A DNA stretch of 25,515 nt from the IMG/VR virus record IMGVR_UViG_3300032326_001208, positions 64,001 to 89,515 of that record. The stretch is one strand, 5' to 3'. The stretch's first letter is position 1, and every line of letters starts with the position of its first letter. The notes under the pieces were generated by a model, which was not told where the DNA came from, made no database searches, and worked only from the letters and a program-made list of their open reading frames with translations. Both the position numbers and the translations under genes were made by a program. Origin of the DNA: a virus. Shown here in pieces: positions 15,425-25,515 of the stretch.

Positions 15425-17107
15425 ATGAAAAAATTATTAACATTTTTAGGGATATTGGTAATATCTCTATTATCGTTCAAATCAGAAGCTCAAATAGTTG
15501 TAAACCAATCTATTTCAGCAGGACCTTATAAAGTTGGTGATACAATCACTATAACTTATACAGTAAATAAAGGAACTACATCACCTCGTTATTTTTGGTT
15601 GAGATACCAATTCAATAATAAGGCTTTAACGTACCTATCGACTACATTTACACAGGGTTCTCAATCTCAAACCTTTTATACCGGTTGGACTAACTATAAG
15701 TTTACACCAAAACAAAATGTAAGTGATACATCACTTTACGGACAATATCAGGCTACACCTTGGGGATATGCTGTAAATGCGGATTGGAACGTTGGGCAGT
15801 TGGCAATTCAAAGAGCTGACCAATCTATCAATGGTGTAATAGCAACTCAAAGATATATTCTTAAAGACCAAAATGTTTACGAAAACTTCCATGATTTAGA
15901 TTTATCATATGCATTAGATAGTGCAACGGGTAACAACATTCCATTTGTAAGAACAACATCTGGTCCTTTATCAATTACCGGTGTAAGTGGTAATACATCT
16001 TTCTTTAAAGTAAGAGTACTATTCCCATCTGGATATAATATTGCTGACCACAACGTTCAATTAATGAGATTGAAAACAGACGGTACTGGTGATATTGATT
16101 GGTCACAACAACCACTTCAACAAAAAGCATTGGATGGTAGTGGTGAGGCTATATTCACAACAGGTGTTAAAGTTGGTGATTCGTTAGGTGTATTTGTATC
16201 ACCTGCTTCACAAAAGTCTTGGATGAACAATGTGATAACTGTATCAGATGCATATAAATCATTTTTAGGTATTTCACAAACTGATATTAATGGTACATCA
16301 AATTATTTCACAAGACCAAACTTGGAAAGAAAAATTGGTAACATTACTAGAAATGATAATGTATTTACCGAAGCAGATTCTTATTTCGCATTTGCATATG
16401 TAATGGGACAAGATGTATCGGCAAATGCATTTGTACCAACATCAACCGCAACTTCTTGGAGATGGCAGAGTGGTTTGTTAAATCAAAGTTGGTTAGATGG
16501 AAATCAAAGATATAGAGTATATGTTACTCAACCTGCACAAACCGTAGATGCGGTATTTGCATGGGGTGGTGATTTAGATTGGTCACATTCATCTCATCCT
16601 GATACGGTAGCGGCAAGAATATCAGCAGGTATCTTTACAAACGCAGTAAATCCTGGCACATCGGATGTTACTACTATACAGAGTATGTCCACTATGGCAA
16701 TGACTTCATACCAATCAAATTCATATCAAAGTGCTAAATTAGAGCAAGCATCTTTAAGTGTAGTATCTACATTAGAAGGTGGTAAAGTTGTTTTAAGTAC
16801 TAGATTAACCAAAGAAGGTTTAGCAGGTTTGCAAGTTATTATGAATTATGATTCAACAAAATTAACATTGGATAACGTAATATTTGATGCTGGTTCTACA
16901 ATCACCAATTTCTCAACGCATGATAATGGTAGATTGACATTTGGTTCTATTGACCAAATAAAAGTTTCTAGAATCAAAACTGGAATTCCATATAAATTAA
17001 TCTTCACACCAAAAGTTCCATTAAGCAATACTGCCGGTTTATTCTTCTTTGTACTAGCAGATGCTGTTGATGCGACTGGTAAGAAGATAGAACTTGTAGT
17101 AGACTAA
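15425..17107 (+). CDS. secreted protein with degenerate dockerin-like and cohesin-like regions
   Basis: A 560-residue protein with a clear signal peptide (KKLLTFLGILVISLLSF, cleavage near SEA-Q). Residues ~25-290 are beta-rich with no family I recognise. At ~309-330 TRNDNVFTEADSYFAFAYVMG matches the dockerin repeat of the next protein, but its calcium loop has lost the first two Asp positions. GDLDWSHSS (~381) fits the second dockerin half. The last ~120 residues (LSTRLTKEGLAGLQVIMNYD, GLFFFVLADAVDATGK) resemble a cohesin-type beta sandwich. No T9SS-type sorting tail follows. It overlaps the next gene at TAATG. Likely an extracellular or virion-surface adhesin; role inferred. Confidence 0.75.
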   Translation: MKKLLTFLGILVISLLSFKSEAQIVVNQSISAGPYKVGDTITITYTVNKGTTSPRYFWLRYQFNNKALTYLSTTFTQGSQSQTFYTGWTNYKFTPKQNVSDTSLYGQYQATPWGYAVNADWNVGQLAIQRADQSINGVIATQRYILKDQNVYENFHDLDLSYALDSATGNNIPFVRTTSGPLSITGVSGNTSFFKVRVLFPSGYNIADHNVQLMRLKTDGTGDIDWSQQPLQQKALDGSGEAIFTTGVKVGDSLGVFVSPASQKSWMNNVITVSDAYKSFLGISQTDINGTSNYFTRPNLERKIGNITRNDNVFTEADSYFAFAYVMGQDVSANAFVPTSTATSWRWQSGLLNQSWLDGNQRYRVYVTQPAQTVDAVFAWGGDLDWSHSSHPDTVAARISAGIFTNAVNPGTSDVTTIQSMSTMAMTSYQSNSYQSAKLEQASLSVVSTLEGGKVVLSTRLTKEGLAGLQVIMNYDSTKLTLDNVIFDAGSTITNFSTHDNGRLTFGSIDQIKVSRIKTGIPYKLIFTPKVPLSNTAGLFFFVLADAVDATGKKIELVVD

Positions 17108-19416
17108 TGAGAAACTTATTAATATTTTTATTTTTATTAATTACAAATTTAGGGTTCGGTCAGAGTGTATCTGCACCGGACTCTAAATCGTTTTTACCAT
17201 CTACAAATGGACAAGATGCTAGTGGATTTGTATTGAGTGGATTTGGTTCTACTGAAACTCTATTAGCATCAATCAGTTTAGTGAATCCACCAACAGGTAC
17301 AACATTTAATTTAACCACAACAACAGGTCTAACCGCAGCAAGTGGATTTACATTAGCAGGTAATAAAACTCGTTTAGTGGTAACGGGAACGATGGCTAAT
17401 GTCAATATAGCATTAGCATCTCTAAAAGTAAACACAGGTTCGGTGAGAGGTAATATTGCATTATCGGTAGCAGCTACGGTTAATCCAACGGGTTTCTTTT
17501 ATAATGGAACAAACGGACACTTTTACAGACCAATAACTGCAACCAACGAAAGAACAACATATACCAATGCAAGAGCAAGGTCTTTATTAACCACATTCAA
17601 AGGACAGACTGGATATTTGGTAACAATCACTTCCGCTGATGAAGATGCTTTTATATTCGCAAATGTACCTGCAACTAATGTATGGTTTGCAGCTACGGAT
17701 GAAGTTGTTGATGGTAGATGGGTAATTGATGCTGGGCCTGAAAGAGGTACGGTAATGAAAACCTCAAATGGACATGCTACAGGAAATATTCCAGGTGTGT
17801 ATAACAACTGGGCATGGAATGAACCAAATGGTGCTAATGGTAGTGAGAATTATGCAGTAGCAAAGTGGAATGGTGCAGCAAATTGGAATGATTTATCAAA
17901 CCATTGGAGTAATCCTTATGTAATTGAATATGGAACTTGGACTAATCCTGATGATGCTACATTTACAGAGTTTTATACAAATTCGGTAACACATACAAAC
18001 GGAGATGTATTAACTGCAAGATTTAATTTTGATTTTGGAACTAATATAGATGAAACTAAGTTTAGTGCAACTTTATTAGCGCAATCAAATAATCAATACC
18101 TACCAACTACAAATACCAACCGAACTCTAAATGGATTAGGTAGAGTAGATATTACAAATGATTTAGATACAGTAAAAATAACTGATGGAATTAGAGCAAC
18201 TATAACACCAGGTCAAGTAGAATGGTCACTTATAAATCCATACGAAGCATCACGAAATGGACACCGATTGCAAATTGATGAAAGGGAGTTCTTTGGAACT
18301 GGTATAAACTTAAATCAAATAAAATCAGTACAATTATTTGATATATACGATGGCCCTATTCAACCTTTGGATTTTGGTGGATGGTGGAAACAATGGTTAG
18401 TGCCGGGAAATATTAACCTTGCTAGTAAAGTTGCTGCAAGTTCATTTCAAAGTAATATAAGATTACAAGATGGATGGTATGCGTTTAGAGCCGAATATAA
18501 TTTCACACCAAATACAATGTTTAAACAACATGGAATAAATTTATCATATACTAATCAAACCGAACTAAATAATTTATATAGTAGTATTGTGACCGTATCA
18601 GATGTGTTTATTGCATTTAAAGAATTATCAAATGGTGGAATATTTGGAAACGAAAGTGGATTAGAGTTTACATCTGGTGTTCAATTTATGAATGCAGATG
18701 TGGATGGTAATGGTATATTCAATGAAGCGGATACATATAAATTATTACAACATTTGATTGGAGTCCAACCACTTACTCAAAATACTAATTTAAACAATTT
18801 AATAAAGTTATATGGTAAATCTGAATATGATGCAATAACAAAAACAAATTGGAATACTCAATTCAACTCAACGAGAAGTTTATATCCATTTAATTTAAAT
18901 AGTGGAACACTTAATAACACTTATAATGTTAGTGCAACTTGGGTAGGTGATGTAAACTTATCACATTCTGCACAACAAACTCCAGCTGTAATAGCGGGAG
19001 CTTCTATTAGAAGTATGAGTACTACACCAATCAGTTTACCGATATTAAATCAAATAAACGCATTTATAATAACTGAAATTGTTGGAGATAGTGTTAATGC
19101 ATATATTACGATTGACCCACTACAACAGGAATTAGTAGGAACTCAATTCAAATTAAATTACGATAATAGTTTATTAAAGTTTAGCAGTGTATCTTATAAA
19201 ACAAAAGGGTCACCAACTAATTATGGAACTGATAAAGGTGATTATGTAAATTTTGGTTCTTTAATTACTGATGGTGGGGTTTTGGATAATACTACCGAAT
19301 ATAAAATCAGTTTCAAACCACAAACAAAATTAAATAACGTACTAGGTTTAATTTCAATTTCATTTACCGATGCTGTAAATAAAAGAGGAAACACATTAAA
19401 AGTAAAAATAAAATAA
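17107..19416 (+). CDS. secreted C-type lectin protein with dockerin-like and cohesin-like domains
   Basis: A 769-residue protein with signal peptide (NLLIFLFLLITNLGFGQS). Residues ~40-120 resemble a bacterial cadherin-like sandwich (TGTMANVNIALASLKV). Residues ~129-277 form a C-type lectin domain: GHFYRPI, GYLVTITSADEDAFIF, VWFAATDEVVDGRWVI, YNNWAWNEPNGANGSENYAV and WNDLSNHWSNPYVIEYG. After a long middle region, DVDGNGIFNEADTYKLLQHL (~535) is a good dockerin calcium loop with GDVNLSHS (~614) as its second half, and the end (~640-769) is cohesin-like. The C-terminal 250 residues parallel those of the preceding protein. Overlaps both neighbours at TAATG. Probably binds glycans at the cell or virion surface. 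Confidence 0.85.
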   Translation: MRNLLIFLFLLITNLGFGQSVSAPDSKSFLPSTNGQDASGFVLSGFGSTETLLASISLVNPPTGTTFNLTTTTGLTAASGFTLAGNKTRLVVTGTMANVNIALASLKVNTGSVRGNIALSVAATVNPTGFFYNGTNGHFYRPITATNERTTYTNARARSLLTTFKGQTGYLVTITSADEDAFIFANVPATNVWFAATDEVVDGRWVIDAGPERGTVMKTSNGHATGNIPGVYNNWAWNEPNGANGSENYAVAKWNGAANWNDLSNHWSNPYVIEYGTWTNPDDATFTEFYTNSVTHTNGDVLTARFNFDFGTNIDETKFSATLLAQSNNQYLPTTNTNRTLNGLGRVDITNDLDTVKITDGIRATITPGQVEWSLINPYEASRNGHRLQIDEREFFGTGINLNQIKSVQLFDIYDGPIQPLDFGGWWKQWLVPGNINLASKVAASSFQSNIRLQDGWYAFRAEYNFTPNTMFKQHGINLSYTNQTELNNLYSSIVTVSDVFIAFKELSNGGIFGNESGLEFTSGVQFMNADVDGNGIFNEADTYKLLQHLIGVQPLTQNTNLNNLIKLYGKSEYDAITKTNWNTQFNSTRSLYPFNLNSGTLNNTYNVSATWVGDVNLSHSAQQTPAVIAGASIRSMSTTPISLPILNQINAFIITEIVGDSVNAYITIDPLQQELVGTQFKLNYDNSLLKFSSVSYKTKGSPTNYGTDKGDYVNFGSLITDGGVLDNTTEYKISFKPQTKLNNVLGLISISFTDAVNKRGNTLKVKIK

Positions 19417-21847: not shown

Positions 21848-22462
21848 ATGGCAGGTATCGCAGACCAATTCGCAGGTCTTCCTATTGAAGATTTGATTGT
21901 TTCACCGATTGTTGGTATGGCAAAAGGTCAAGCAAAATTAAACGAAGTAACTTGGAAATACATTTCTGAAGTAGCATTCGTAACGGATGAAAAAACTAAA
22001 AAAACTAAAGCACGTTCTTTAGATGTTGAAATGAACAGAGTTGTAACCGATGGTGCAACAGGTGAACAAAAACTACAAAAAATTTATAGTAAAGTTCCTA
22101 TGTTACCATTAGTACCACTTCCTTCATTAGCAATTACTTCAGCAGATATTGAATTTGCTATGGAAGTAAAAACTTCAGAAGCAGAAAAAAGTGAAGTAAA
22201 AAGTGAAAGCAGTGTTGAAGTATCGGCAGGTGGCAGATTTTGGGGTATGAGCTGGAATGCAAAAATTTCTGGTAAAGTAGCTACAAACAAAGAGAACACT
22301 AGAAGTACTGATAACTCAGCTAAATACAACGTAAAAGTACATGCTGAACAATTACCAGCAACTGAAGGTATGTTGAAATTATCAGATTACCTAACTCAAA
22401 TGTTAGAACCATCTTTAATTCCACTTACCGAAGACCCAGCAACTGGTGGTGGTAAGAAGTAA
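21848..22462 (+). CDS. DUF2589 family protein
   Basis: A 204-residue protein matching the DUF2589 plan: an N-terminal helix (LPIEDLIVSPIVGMAKGQAK), then a beta sandwich, VPMLPLVPLPSLAITSADIE, the S/K/E-rich loop, and a C-terminal strand pair with VKVHAEQLPATEGMLKLSDY. DUF2589 proteins occur in bacteria and phages, usually in neighbouring pairs; their role is unknown. No signal peptide. The next gene looks like a partner with a similar core, so the two probably form a complex. The acidic S-E-x-K run at ~108-122 is unusual but fits the family's variable loop. Confidence 0.88.
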   Translation: MAGIADQFAGLPIEDLIVSPIVGMAKGQAKLNEVTWKYISEVAFVTDEKTKKTKARSLDVEMNRVVTDGATGEQKLQKIYSKVPMLPLVPLPSLAITSADIEFAMEVKTSEAEKSEVKSESSVEVSAGGRFWGMSWNAKISGKVATNKENTRSTDNSAKYNVKVHAEQLPATEGMLKLSDYLTQMLEPSLIPLTEDPATGGGKK

Positions 22463-22489: not shown

Positions 22490-22966
22490 ATGGCAAGATT
22501 AAATGTAGAGGAACTAGTTGGCGGTCTTTTAGAGGCCGCCATGGTTTCTCAAGGTATAAGTGAAAGACAGCATATTAATGCTCTCCGAAACTATTTCAAT
22601 GAAGATGGTACACCCAAAACCACTACCTTTAATATAGGTGGTAAGGATTTGGTTGTACCTCTTTATATTTTAGCGGACCATTCATCTATTGGATTAGATG
22701 AGCTAGATATTGAGTTTACTTGTAGACTTATATTTGGTGATGAAGAAAAGGAAGTATCCAGTCTTAAAAAATCTCTATTGGGGTTATTTAAGAAAAAAGG
22801 ATACGAACATAATATCAAAGGTATTGAAGTTGATTCAGGATACAATCCAAGTGAAGCTGGGATGGCTAAAATAAAGGTTAAGTTTAAGGCTGATGAAAAA
22901 CCTGAAGCTGTAAGTAGATTGATTGATGAATATATCAAAAATCTAGAAGACCCAAATGTAAAGTAA
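22490..22966 (+). CDS. DUF2589-associated partner protein
   Basis: A 158-residue protein with N-terminal helix (NVEELVGGLLEAAMVSQGIS), a strand pair (LVVPLYILADHSSIGLDELD), and a C-terminal half with IKGIEVDSGYNPSEAGMAKI and KADEKPEAVSRLIDEYIKNL. The V-P-L-x-x-L-x-x-x-x-x-I-x-x-x-E-L-D-I-x-F core mirrors the PLVPLPSLAITSADIEF core of the preceding DUF2589 protein, so it is likely the second member of the pair. No signal peptide. Ends one base before the second terminator-promoter cassette. Confidence 0.72.
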   Translation: MARLNVEELVGGLLEAAMVSQGISERQHINALRNYFNEDGTPKTTTFNIGGKDLVVPLYILADHSSIGLDELDIEFTCRLIFGDEEKEVSSLKKSLLGLFKKKGYEHNIKGIEVDSGYNPSEAGMAKIKVKFKADEKPEAVSRLIDEYIKNLEDPNVK

Positions 22967-23754: not shown

Positions 23755-23877
23755 ATGGGAAGTAAAGCAAAGAAACCAAGAGCAATGAGAAGCCGTAGAA
23801 GCGGTATTAAAAAATTAGAATTAGTAAAAGCTAATTTAGCAATTTTAAAGAAATTAGAGAGTGATAAAACTAACTAA
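23755..23877 (+). CDS. very basic 40-aa peptide
   Basis: The ATG at 23755 is three bases after the CsgG-like stop and opens a 40-codon frame. The N-terminal half is strongly basic (GSKAKKPRAMRSRRSGIKK), the second half is an amphipathic helix (LELVKANLAILKKLESDK). Net charge is about +12, as in nucleic-acid-binding or antimicrobial peptides. It overlaps the next gene, which starts with GTG at 23861, by 17 bases. Too short for family assignment; the position and coupling support it. Confidence 0.5.
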   Translation: MGSKAKKPRAMRSRRSGIKKLELVKANLAILKKLESDKTN

Positions 23878-24775
23878 TATATTAAATGAAGGTGTGAGTG
23901 CTAGTGTAGTTACTTGTGATTCATGTAATTGGCATTGGGATATATCCGATGGTGGTACTCAACCTTACCTATGTCACAAATGCGGACATGATAATATGCC
24001 AATTAGCGAAGACCTTCGTAAATGGTTTGGTAGTGGACCAACTGGTGGTTGGGATAGATATAATACCAAAGGTGAAAAGGTTGGAAAATGTGGAGATTCT
24101 AAAAAAGGGTCTGCATATGCAGCCTGTTTATCAAATGCTAAAGCTGATAAATTAGGTAAAGATGGTAGAGCTTCATTTGTAAAAAGAAAAAGAGCTGCGC
24201 AATCTGATGCCGGTGATAGTAAGAAAGGTGGTGAACAAAAGAAAGGACAGAAACCTACATTTGTAAAGACCGGAGCTAGTGAGGGATTGGAAGAAAAATG
24301 GTCTCAAAAATATAAGAACTCAATAAATTGTAGTAACCCAAAAGGTTTCTCACAAAAAGCACATTGTGCTGGTAAAAAGAAAAACGAAATCATGACAATA
24401 GAAGAAAAAATGGAATTATTCTTGGAAAAGAATTGTCCAACTGACCCAGGTAAATGGTCAGCATCTAAAGCAGCCGCTAAAAAGAAGTTTGATGTATATC
24501 CATCAGCATATGCAAATGGATGGGCTGCAAAAAATTACAAATCAAAAGGTGGTGGTTGGAAAGTGTGTAAAGAAAGTGTTATGAAAGAAGTTGAAGTTGG
24601 ACCAGGACATGGAAATGATAGAGATATGGTTGTGGGTGTTGCAGAAATACTTCGTATGGTAGATGATGTGAATAATAGAAAAGAAATAGCAGAAGCTATG
24701 TTAAGAAAGTTCAAATCAGAAGATGTAATACATAATGCAGAAGAGTTTTTAACATTATGTGGAATTTCTTCATAA
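23861..24775 (+). CDS. phage domain-array protein (zinc ribbon, Lys-rich repeats, YPSAYANGW domain)
   Basis: A 304-residue protein starting at GTG 23861 with MIKLTNILNE, a start sequence common in phage domain-array proteins. Residues 19-41 form a zinc ribbon (Cys19, Cys22, Cys38, Cys41 in CDSCNWHWD and LCHKCGHDN). Next come a Gly/Lys-rich block (CGDSKKGSAYAACLSNAKAD, ~76-140), a KWSQKYKNSINCSNPKGFSQ block (~145-173), the phage domain with DVYPSAYANGWAAKNYK (~205-228; I recall it as DUF5872) and a helical end. All four are recurrent phage modules usually seen separately or in mixed order, perhaps virion-associated. The longer context argues for a structural or DNA-associated role; unproven. 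Confidence 0.8.
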   Translation: MIKLTNILNEGVSASVVTCDSCNWHWDISDGGTQPYLCHKCGHDNMPISEDLRKWFGSGPTGGWDRYNTKGEKVGKCGDSKKGSAYAACLSNAKADKLGKDGRASFVKRKRAAQSDAGDSKKGGEQKKGQKPTFVKTGASEGLEEKWSQKYKNSINCSNPKGFSQKAHCAGKKKNEIMTIEEKMELFLEKNCPTDPGKWSASKAAAKKKFDVYPSAYANGWAAKNYKSKGGGWKVCKESVMKEVEVGPGHGNDRDMVVGVAEILRMVDDVNNRKEIAEAMLRKFKSEDVIHNAEEFLTLCGISS

Positions 24776-24805
24776 TTTGTTAATATTAAAATAACCGATT
24801 TAGAC

Positions 24806-24866
24806 AAACGCTCTCATAGTTATTGAGGAACTAACCTAAAATAACTTTATGAGAGCGTTTCTTTTA
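24806..24866 (+). promoter_or_regulatory. hairpin covering the start codon of the TonB-receptor gene (terminator or attenuator)
   Basis: AAACGCTCTCATA (24806-24818) pairs perfectly over 13 bases with TATGAGAGCGTTT (24848-24860). After a two-base bulge, GTTATT pairs with AATAAC (24840-24845), leaving a 15-base loop. The right arm contains the ATG at 24849, and CTTTTATT follows. It could end the unit before it, or hide the start codon of the gene after it. Confidence 0.85.
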
Positions 24867-25515
24867 TTAATGTTACTTCCATTTGTAACGTATTCACAAG
24901 ACACATTATTTTCCAAACAACTATCCACAATTACAGTCCGTTCAGCGGGTAAGAAATCTACAGAAGTAGCTGTAATAACAACCATTCGTAATTCATCCGT
25001 AGTATCGGATGGAGTATCAATAGATTTTATTAAAAAAACACCTGATAGAAATGTAGGTGATGCACTTAAAAGAGTAAGTGGTGTAACAATCCAAAACGAT
25101 AAGTTTGTATTGGTAAGGGGATTGGCAGATAGATATAATTCAGCTATCCTAAACAAAACACTCCTACCATCAACCGAACCTGATAGGAGAGCATTTTCAT
25201 TTGATATAATTCCAACAGCATTAATTGATAACATTATAGTTGCTAAATCAGCATCCGCAAACCAACCAGGTGATTGGAGTGGTGGATTGGTACAAATTAC
25301 AACAAAAGAAGTATCCGATAACTTTTTTAATATCTCATTGGGAAGTGGTTGGGGTTTGGTTTCATCTCTTAAAGATTTTAAGTTAGTTCAAACTACCGAA
25401 TTCCCTTCCACATTCCCATCCACTTACAAATATCGTATTAGTGGTAATGGTGATAAAAGATTATTCACAAAACAATTTAGTAATCCAATTGCAGAAGGAT
25501 TTACATCATCGACAA
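24849..25515 (+). CDS. TonB-dependent outer-membrane receptor, 3' partial
   Basis: The frame from ATG 24849 stays open to the window edge, 222 codons seen. The signal peptide is MRAFLLLMLLPFVTYS-Q. A TonB box-like stretch (LSTITVRSAGKKS) leads to a plug domain: NVGDALKRVSGVTIQNDKFV, VRGLADRYNSAILNK, PDRRAFSFDIIPTALIDNII and DWSGGLVQITTKE, all typical of Bacteroidota receptors with R-G-L-x-D-R-Y. The N-terminal carboxypeptidase-D-like domain usual in many such receptors is absent. TonB receptors move large ligands across the outer membrane with energy from TonB. In this phage-like setting it is unexpected; the barrel part lies beyond the window. Confidence 0.88.
   Translation, partial: MRAFLLLMLLPFVTYSQDTLFSKQLSTITVRSAGKKSTEVAVITTIRNSSVVSDGVSIDFIKKTPDRNVGDALKRVSGVTIQNDKFVLVRGLADRYNSAILNKTLLPSTEPDRRAFSFDIIPTALIDNIIVAKSASANQPGDWSGGLVQITTKEVSDNFFNISLGSGWGLVSSLKDFKLVQTTEFPSTFPSTYKYRISGNGDKRLFTKQFSNPIAEGFTSST

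Follow-up and report, generated by a model that had tools for sequence, protein, structure and literature searches.

The TonB-dependent receptor (TBDR) gene that ends the window (the whole stretch of DNA analysed, 25,515 nucleotides long) is, with near certainty, phage-borne, and the pair that it forms with a downstream lipoprotein gene in its viral relatives is probably a phosphorus acquisition module under Pho-type control. Phosphorus uptake was indicated by the partner lipoprotein, by the gene neighbourhood of the related pair in Aquirufa and by a promoter repeat upstream of the receptor, and the same three lines favoured feeding of the infected cell among the roles that a first-pass annotation had proposed for a phage-borne receptor. 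The window is taken from a virus record of 89,515 bp (G000), of which it covers positions 64001-89515, and the record stops inside the receptor gene. The receptor and the gene before it are placed as follows:

23861..24775, + strand: gene directly upstream of the TBDR, 304 aa, matching two PHROGs of unknown function
24849..25515, + strand: TBDR gene, N-terminal part, cut by the contig end
25116..25136, + strand: plug motif RGLADRY
25269..25292, + strand: plug motif GDWSGGLV

The receptor open reading frame (24849-25514, + strand) starts with ATG and runs for 222 aa with no stop before the window end. Within the last 667 bp of the window it encodes a signal-peptide-like start, followed by a stretch that we take to be Ton-box-like, the plug and the beginning of the barrel; the barrel itself is known from relatives, the window copy ending before it. 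The Pfam Plug domain (PF07715) was matched from residue 51 at 35.5 bits against a cut-off of 23.9, and the two plug motifs on which the Bacteroidota-type assignment had been based were both located in the gene. TonB-dependent transport by the viral receptor is predicted from these features.

The first-pass annotation had left room for a different origin, namely a stretch of host sequence bordering a prophage, or a join made in assembly at about 24780-24850, in which case the receptor would not be the phage's. This reading has in its favour that the record breaks off within the gene, that GC skew falls just before it (GC content across the join is roughly flat) and that profile searches of G000 itself found neither the T4-like capsid protein Gp23 nor a terminase. 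Both versions were refuted by independent assemblies. A separate assembly (L023), in which the upstream gene and the receptor have the same arrangement, matched the window in a single alignment of 3,510 bp running through 24780-24850 at 95.8% DNA identity, and other assemblies were collinear across the same interval at 93.4% (L007 and L008, whose alignments are identical and which are perhaps one phage), 90.5% (L009) and 84.6% (L024). The receptor gene is internal on large contigs (as long as 326 kb) that encode Gp23 and terminase, its partner gene is conserved, the protein is under purifying selection, and in the receptor tree 48 non-redundant viral copies cluster with a single Aquirufa sequence, separate from the remaining cellular relatives. 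With the carriage of a Bacteroidota-type receptor by a phage confirmed in this way, we give the host-DNA reading next to no credence.

Searching related phages for the receptor yielded relatives in 103 confirmed IMG/VR stretches, of which the best 80, from 69 metagenome ids, were kept for study; 15 of these 80 loci lie on contigs longer than 100 kb, the largest being 326 kb. Among records picked mostly from the longer ones of the 80 loci, Gp23 was found in 13 of 22 (21 IMG/VR records including G000, plus megaphage LR745206), including 10 of the 15 contigs longer than 100 kb, and in 0/14 control genomes. A terminase profile matched 17 of 27 records, 13 of them strongly, and the same profile also matched in 11 of the 14 control genomes. 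Both proteins are present in G001, a 274-kb contig that is a close relative of G000. G000 was counted as phage because it shares with G001 93-95% DNA identity over the last 3.5 kb of the window and also a second TBDR; G001 carries relatives of both G000 receptors, about 27 kb apart and in the same relative orientation. Matches to human faecal "Bacteriophage sp." records (MT838075, MT837092, MT835841 and MT835888) were not counted as evidence of viral carriage; MT835841 looks bacterial by eye.

The second receptor of G000 (58899-62159, - strand; locus L087:2900-6160) is complete, with 1086 aa and CarboxypepD, Plug and OMP_b-brl_4 domains, and is unrelated to the first. It has seven IMG/VR relatives, among which three large contigs (274, 207 and 133 kb) also carry the first receptor. 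As a candidate Pho-controlled gene it was rejected, with no repeat of the kind described below within 250 nt upstream in G000 or in six of the seven relatives, for which the start was taken at the match. Elsewhere in G000, genes that by eye resemble purine nucleoside phosphorylase (L002:5810-6622) and adenine phosphoribosyltransferase (L004:14164-14670) suggest nucleotide salvage in the same phage. The window also encodes two neighbouring DUF2589 proteins of unknown function (21848-22462 and 22490-22966) and two long secreted-looking proteins (15425-19416), whose cohesin-like matches are weak and under cut-off and whose relatives lie near the receptor in 27 of 81 loci clustered.

Across the 80 loci, 64 receptor open reading frames reach a stop codon: 28 are 740-790 aa long, 35 exceed 790 aa and one, in L056, has 580 aa and a reading frame that breaks. 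The remaining 63 were counted as full-length, including L018, whose start is cut by the contig end. The nearest complete viral relatives of the window receptor have 750 aa, and the other kind has about 825 aa with a CarboxypepD domain, the presence of which in the 35 longer proteins was judged by length (L071 seemingly exceeds 790 aa through an upstream extension only). The absence of a carboxypeptidase-D-like domain, noted in the first-pass annotation, holds for the window copy but not for the family, about half of the longer viral relatives having one; it is a trait of part of the family and no mark of a viral decoy.

Plug also scored above its cut-off in the two complete viral relatives scanned, beside OMP_b-brl_3 at 88 and 92 bits. 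In L059 the domains PF13715, PF07715 and PF14905 were all matched, PF13715 under its cut-off; L015, which is of the window's kind, is without PF13715. An AlphaFold2 model of the L015 receptor consists of plug and barrel (pLDDT 78.5), and the 50 PDB matches listed for it, reaching down to E 1.8e-23, are all TBDRs. At E <= 0.001 the only match in a BFVD structure search was "TonB-dependent receptor SusC, uncultured marine phage" (TM 0.82). PHROG searches at E 0.01 gave no match for two complete receptors or one lipoprotein, and assignment to a named viral family was dropped; weak PHROG matches of the 222-aa fragment were not repeated with the full proteins.

Eleven chosen pairs of receptors, four of them over the window's 222 codons, all gave dN/dS values of 0.06-0.21, and the viral receptor is under purifying selection. 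These values bear on the possibility that the gene is chance-captured cargo with no function for the phage. The gene is accessory, as such cargo would be: among 24 Gp23-bearing contigs, mostly fragments, a single one matched, already a known carrier, and two long contigs of related phages, of 169 and 162 kb, had no match. Neutral cargo is very improbable given the low dN/dS, the intact frames in 63 of 64 copies and the retention of both partner and promoter repeat.

The gene directly downstream of the receptor encodes a lipoprotein of about 400 aa in 60/60 loci with enough downstream sequence, and the two genes overlap by 4 bp in 56 of these 60. As the window copy stops before the partner gene, the partner is known from relatives. 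The L015 lipoprotein had no Pfam (E 0.01), NCBIfam, PHROG or PDB sequence match. Its model is a right-handed beta-helix (pLDDT 87.6) with VIA-align Z scores of up to 23.8, while no Foldseek match reached an E below 0.03. Among the 20 viral and host copies aligned, an acidic cluster (D198-D226, E255 and D257) is invariant. The SusC/SusD glycan transporter type (SusCD) was rejected for this pair, since the partner had no PF07980 or PF14322 match at E 0.01 and was modelled as a beta-helix instead. All 60 relatives have the order of a TonB-dependent transporter (TBDT) followed by a lipoprotein of predicted pectin-lyase fold, the feature of the pairs in phosphate utilisation systems PUS III and PUS IV.

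Comparison of the receptor with host genomes, another way in which its origin could be checked, found relatives in Bacteroidota, the nearest of them in Aquirufa. A GTDB scan with two short peptide patterns, which may miss further relatives, gave 39 cellular loci: the nearest were in Aquirufa antheringensis (L088, 68%) and a Cytophagaceae MAG (72%, part of the gene), and the other 37 were 25-47% identical in the best segment. The Aquirufa pair is the nearest cellular pair to the viral one, at 68-75% identity, and lies in a phosphorus locus with the order TBDR, lipoprotein, phosphatase-like gene and PiT; the MAG pair likewise precedes a phosphatase-like gene and PiT. Within 8 kb in Aquirufa are PiT (PHO4, 295 bits), an alkaline phosphatase (250 bits) and a phosphonate HD-oxygenase, which, like a TIGR03364 oxidoreductase, scored above its NCBIfam cut-off. 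The Aquirufa receptor has the PF13715, PF07715 and PF14905 architecture, as does Fjoh_0545 of Flavobacterium johnsoniae.

Aquirufa's family was represented by 200 genomes, and 182 of them encode relatives of the lipoprotein. Distances to PHO4 were taken in the 74 highest-ranked of these 182: 6 have PiT no more than 3 kb from the lipoprotein gene, and 14 have it within about 16 kb, the other 60 being without such a link. PhoU was found in 0/74, which has no bearing either way on a Pst/PhoU context. In Flavobacterium fontis (L277) a homologous pair (TBDR 31% identical and 937 aa long, lipoprotein 44% identical) adjoins genes that by eye are PhoB-, PhoR- and glycosyltransferase-like. A second Flavobacterium genome (L278) has the receptor in the same place, and the next gene there is split into two open reading frames with a start that is not lipoprotein-like.

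In the phage loci examined, covering up to about 8 kb on each side, no relatives of the Aquirufa PiT, PhoA, phosphatase-like gene or OprP-type porin were found. Directly behind the pair, 4 of the 80 loci carry a family-2 glycosyltransferase gene and a PlcP/LpxH-like phosphoesterase gene:

L009:11508-12964: glycosyltransferase/phosphoesterase cassette, identical to that of L010
L010:8879-10335: glycosyltransferase/phosphoesterase cassette
L079:11501-12990: glycosyltransferase/phosphoesterase cassette
L086:11322-12911: glycosyltransferase/phosphoesterase cassette

The two genes resemble the lipid-remodelling cassette of phosphate-starved bacteria, and the phage phosphoesterase is 44-48% identical to an Aquirufa-type gene that is preceded by a three-unit repeat of the type found upstream of the viral receptor.

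Two elements were recognised between the upstream gene and the receptor in the window:

24781..24795, + strand: two TAA[CT] units 11 bp apart (TAAT at 24781-24784, TAAC at 24792-24795), Pho-box-like
24817..24825, + strand: TAGTTATTG, which resembles the -7 promoter element of Bacteroidota

The TAA[CT] units lie 68 nt before the receptor ATG, and as many as four occur in other phages of the family. Direct repeats with an 11-bp period are typical of PhoB boxes, and such a period suits OmpR-type regulators in general, not PhoB alone. Two units are weak evidence by themselves, being found in 3% of control promoters, so that the case is carried by the family. The 80 loci were reduced to 55 viral upstream regions of at least 130 nt, with near-duplicates removed and the start codon set by rule of thumb, and the controls came from our own ORF calling, so that spurious ORFs may be among them. 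A pair of TAA[CT] units at a lag of 11 bp was present in 38/55 viral regions versus 22/727 other ORFs of the same loci, and at least three units at this spacing in 15/55 versus 0/727. The repeat was first spotted by eye and counted afterwards, at every spacing from 5 to 30, and Fisher p-values overstate the independence of these related sequences. Spacings of 9, 10 and 12-15 bp were found in 3 to 9 of the 55 viral regions and 8 bp in 26, with 19 and 22 also raised; the enrichment at lag 8 is tentatively put down to common upstream stop-codon context.

Not even two units were found in 17 of the 55 viral regions, eight of which belong to a group with an exonuclease gene upstream. In this group (L038, L049, L056, L060, L068, L074, L076 and L080) the receptor follows closely behind the exonuclease gene, named as such in L038, and no repeat is present. 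The exonuclease gene family occupies that upstream place in 10 loci, and several loci of the group have a TACGTATAAGTGAA-like sequence upstream of the receptor, a possible phage promoter.

The host pairs of Aquirufa and its family carry the same repeat, at least three units lying within 200 nt in 16/20 versus 7/217 other genes (20 regions were fetched, L168 being left out for want of a receptor ORF and L088 added). The seven controls with the repeat are one PiT gene, two PlcP/LpxH-like phosphoesterase genes, three copies of a gene divergent from the TBDR and one PhoB-like regulator gene, itself divergent from a TBDR, whose best NCBIfam matches are PhoB models under their cut-offs. The Flavobacterium loci next to PhoB/PhoR-like genes have no gene with a three-unit repeat within 200 nt, and no clear 11-bp repeat was seen at the pair of megaphage LR745206. 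Taken together, the promoter sequences suggest that the viral operon is apparently controlled by host phosphate-starvation regulation through putative PhoB binding.

The host loci and promoters also bear on whether the pair takes up a nutrient other than phosphorus, such as a carbohydrate or a siderophore. Beta-helix proteins often bind or cleave polysaccharide, the siderophore transporter XusA of B. theta, which works with the surface lipoprotein XusB, is among the PDB matches listed for the receptor model, and in most of the 74 genomes of Aquirufa's family the pair is not next to PiT. A carbohydrate has moreover been proposed for the megaphage "SusC" (PMC9723777). The partner is not SusD-like by Pfam, though; the 11-bp repeat precedes the pairs of Aquirufa's family and a PiT gene there; and the Aquirufa and F. 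fontis pairs adjoin phosphorus or PhoB/PhoR-like genes. A study of F. johnsoniae further reports that TBDTs followed by such lipoproteins are induced under Pi depletion only (PMC8115612). That the repeat is absent from the Flavobacterium loci and that the partner gene is split in L278 makes phosphorus slightly less sure and another nutrient slightly more so, and the latter is, on balance, rather unlikely.

TBDRs are common phage receptors, and a phage-encoded receptor-lipoprotein could in principle replace, mask or titrate a host receptor used by rival phages or bacteriocins, acting in superinfection exclusion or as a decoy. The product would sit in the outer membrane, where such a role is played, and the same phage has a second, unrelated TBDR. 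Exclusion would need neither a lipoprotein partner, present in 60/60 loci, nor a Pho-type promoter, and the nearest cellular pair lies in a phosphorus locus, and purifying selection extends across the whole protein. A role in exclusion is accordingly improbable, and the suggestions that the receptor competes with that of the host or keeps out rivals gained no support, as nothing found points to them.

Phosphorus acquisition by the viral pair could proceed as follows. In T4-like jumbo phages of putative Bacteroidota hosts, the receptor gene would open an operon of two genes, the pair being a version of the host PUS IV-like transporter-lipoprotein pair. When an infected cell runs short of phosphate, host PhoB would bind the repeats of 11-bp period and switch the viral operon on. 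The lipoprotein would then catch or process a putative phosphorus-containing ligand at the cell surface, and the receptor, energised by TonB, would move this ligand across the outer membrane. Host phosphatases of the periplasm, together with PiT, would finally bring phosphate inside, where it could benefit the phage in viral DNA synthesis.

The evolutionary relationship between viral and host pairs was examined in a tree of 97 receptors, obtained from 116 by removing near-duplicates, one of them a second Aquirufa-type sequence; the tree did not include the MAG fragment (L089). The 48 viral sequences and Aquirufa fall into one clade (SH-aLRT 100, branch 1.41); the rest of the tree comprises Aquirufa's family with 18 sequences, further cellular receptors with 26 and a public phage collection with four. 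Megaphage LR745206 has a separate, distant version of the receptor on a long branch outside the T4-like clade. The Aquirufa receptor groups with three phages (support 98) in this tree, which comes from a quick search, has several long branches flagged and settles no root inside the viral-Aquirufa clade. At the Aquirufa phosphorus locus, two other genomes hold a different TBDR-lipoprotein pair, and an exchange is visible between L167:9817-13564 and L164:5358-9998, where the pair differs between flanks that share 82% and 80% DNA identity. Both alternative pairs are AT-rich, so that base composition is no guide to transfer between phage and Aquirufa. Transfer of the pair from phage to host is possible, a reading drawn from the branching of the Aquirufa pair among viral sequences and from its place in a phosphorus locus where relatives have another pair. 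A wider scenario combines a Bacteroidota jumbo-phage lineage that has a phosphorus-uptake module run by host PhoB, some members adding a glycosyltransferase and a PlcP-like phosphoesterase that may strip lipid phosphorus, with an Aquirufa pair acquired from phage in replacement of the native receptor; we put it forward tentatively, as doubtful in its entirety.

To our knowledge, phage genes for phosphorus supply are mainly those of cyanophages, encoding periplasmic PstS and PhoA. Among the matches listed in open-licence PMC papers there was no phage TBDR-lipoprotein pair, no phage TBDR tied to phosphorus and no recognisable Bacteroidota Pho-box sequence. What appears to be new here is the phage TBDR-lipoprotein pair tied to phosphorus, megaphage TBDRs and cyanophage phosphorus genes having been known before. 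If the proposed role is true, phage phosphorus supply would reach the outer membrane and one of the major groups of aquatic bacteria that degrade polymers, and by hijacking a regulator the phage operon would respond to the phosphate status of its host. Because receptor and lipoprotein are kept together there without other phosphorus genes, the viral loci would also offer an entry to the function of the abundant low-phosphate lipoproteins (FI/FII). Aquirufa-type genomes, for their part, have a phosphorus locus in which receptor pairs are swapped, possibly with phages.

Among known systems, the host counterpart of the viral pair is described in F. johnsoniae, where the PhoBR cluster includes the TBDT Fjoh_0545 (pf07715, pf13715 and pf14905) and the lipoprotein Fjoh_0546, both of which rise on Pi depletion, with 8.0 and 9.9 in the FC column of the table given in PMC8115612. 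According to the same study, PUS IV (Fjoh_0545/0546, lipoprotein FII) and the similar PUS III (Fjoh_3857/3856) consist, as in the phages, of a TBDT followed by a pectin-lyase-fold lipoprotein (PMC8115612). The F. fontis homologue of the phage pair, with its PhoB/PhoR-like neighbours, is laid out as this PhoBR cluster, a likeness based on described layout and architecture. Unlike PUS IV, the viral receptor is phage-borne and shorter (750-825 aa versus 937 aa in F. fontis), and about half of the copies are without CarboxypepD; no phoBR or phosphatase gene was seen beside the viral pair, and the 11-bp repeat is absent from the Flavobacterium loci.

Cyanophages carry pstS and phoA under the control of host PhoBR, as described in PMC10976474, and are alike in having a phage phosphorus gene with a promoter that is apparently read by the host phosphate-starvation regulator. 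The proposed system described here differs in its putative Bacteroidota hosts, which are not cyanobacteria, in its promoter sequence and in comprising an outer-membrane TonB-dependent transporter and a surface lipoprotein where cyanophages have a periplasmic binding protein or phosphatase.

The "SusC" TBDR of the two megaphages Mar_Mega_1 and LR745206, for which PMC9723777 suggests a possible role in carbohydrate uptake, is also a receptor on a huge phage. In the 634-kb megaphage record, which is unannotated (LR745206.1, 77475-81045), a beta-helix lipoprotein gene likewise adjoins the published "SusC" gene. It is about 26% identical to the receptor studied here, has the lipoprotein before the TBDR and falls outside the T4-like clade; the comparison suggests that "SusC" may merit re-reading as phosphorus and not carbohydrate uptake. 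The nearest cellular pair, that of A. antheringensis (68% identity for the TBDR and about 72% for the lipoprotein), has the same gene order and a four-unit repeat upstream, and differs from the viral pairs in being chromosomal and followed by phosphatase-like and PiT genes.
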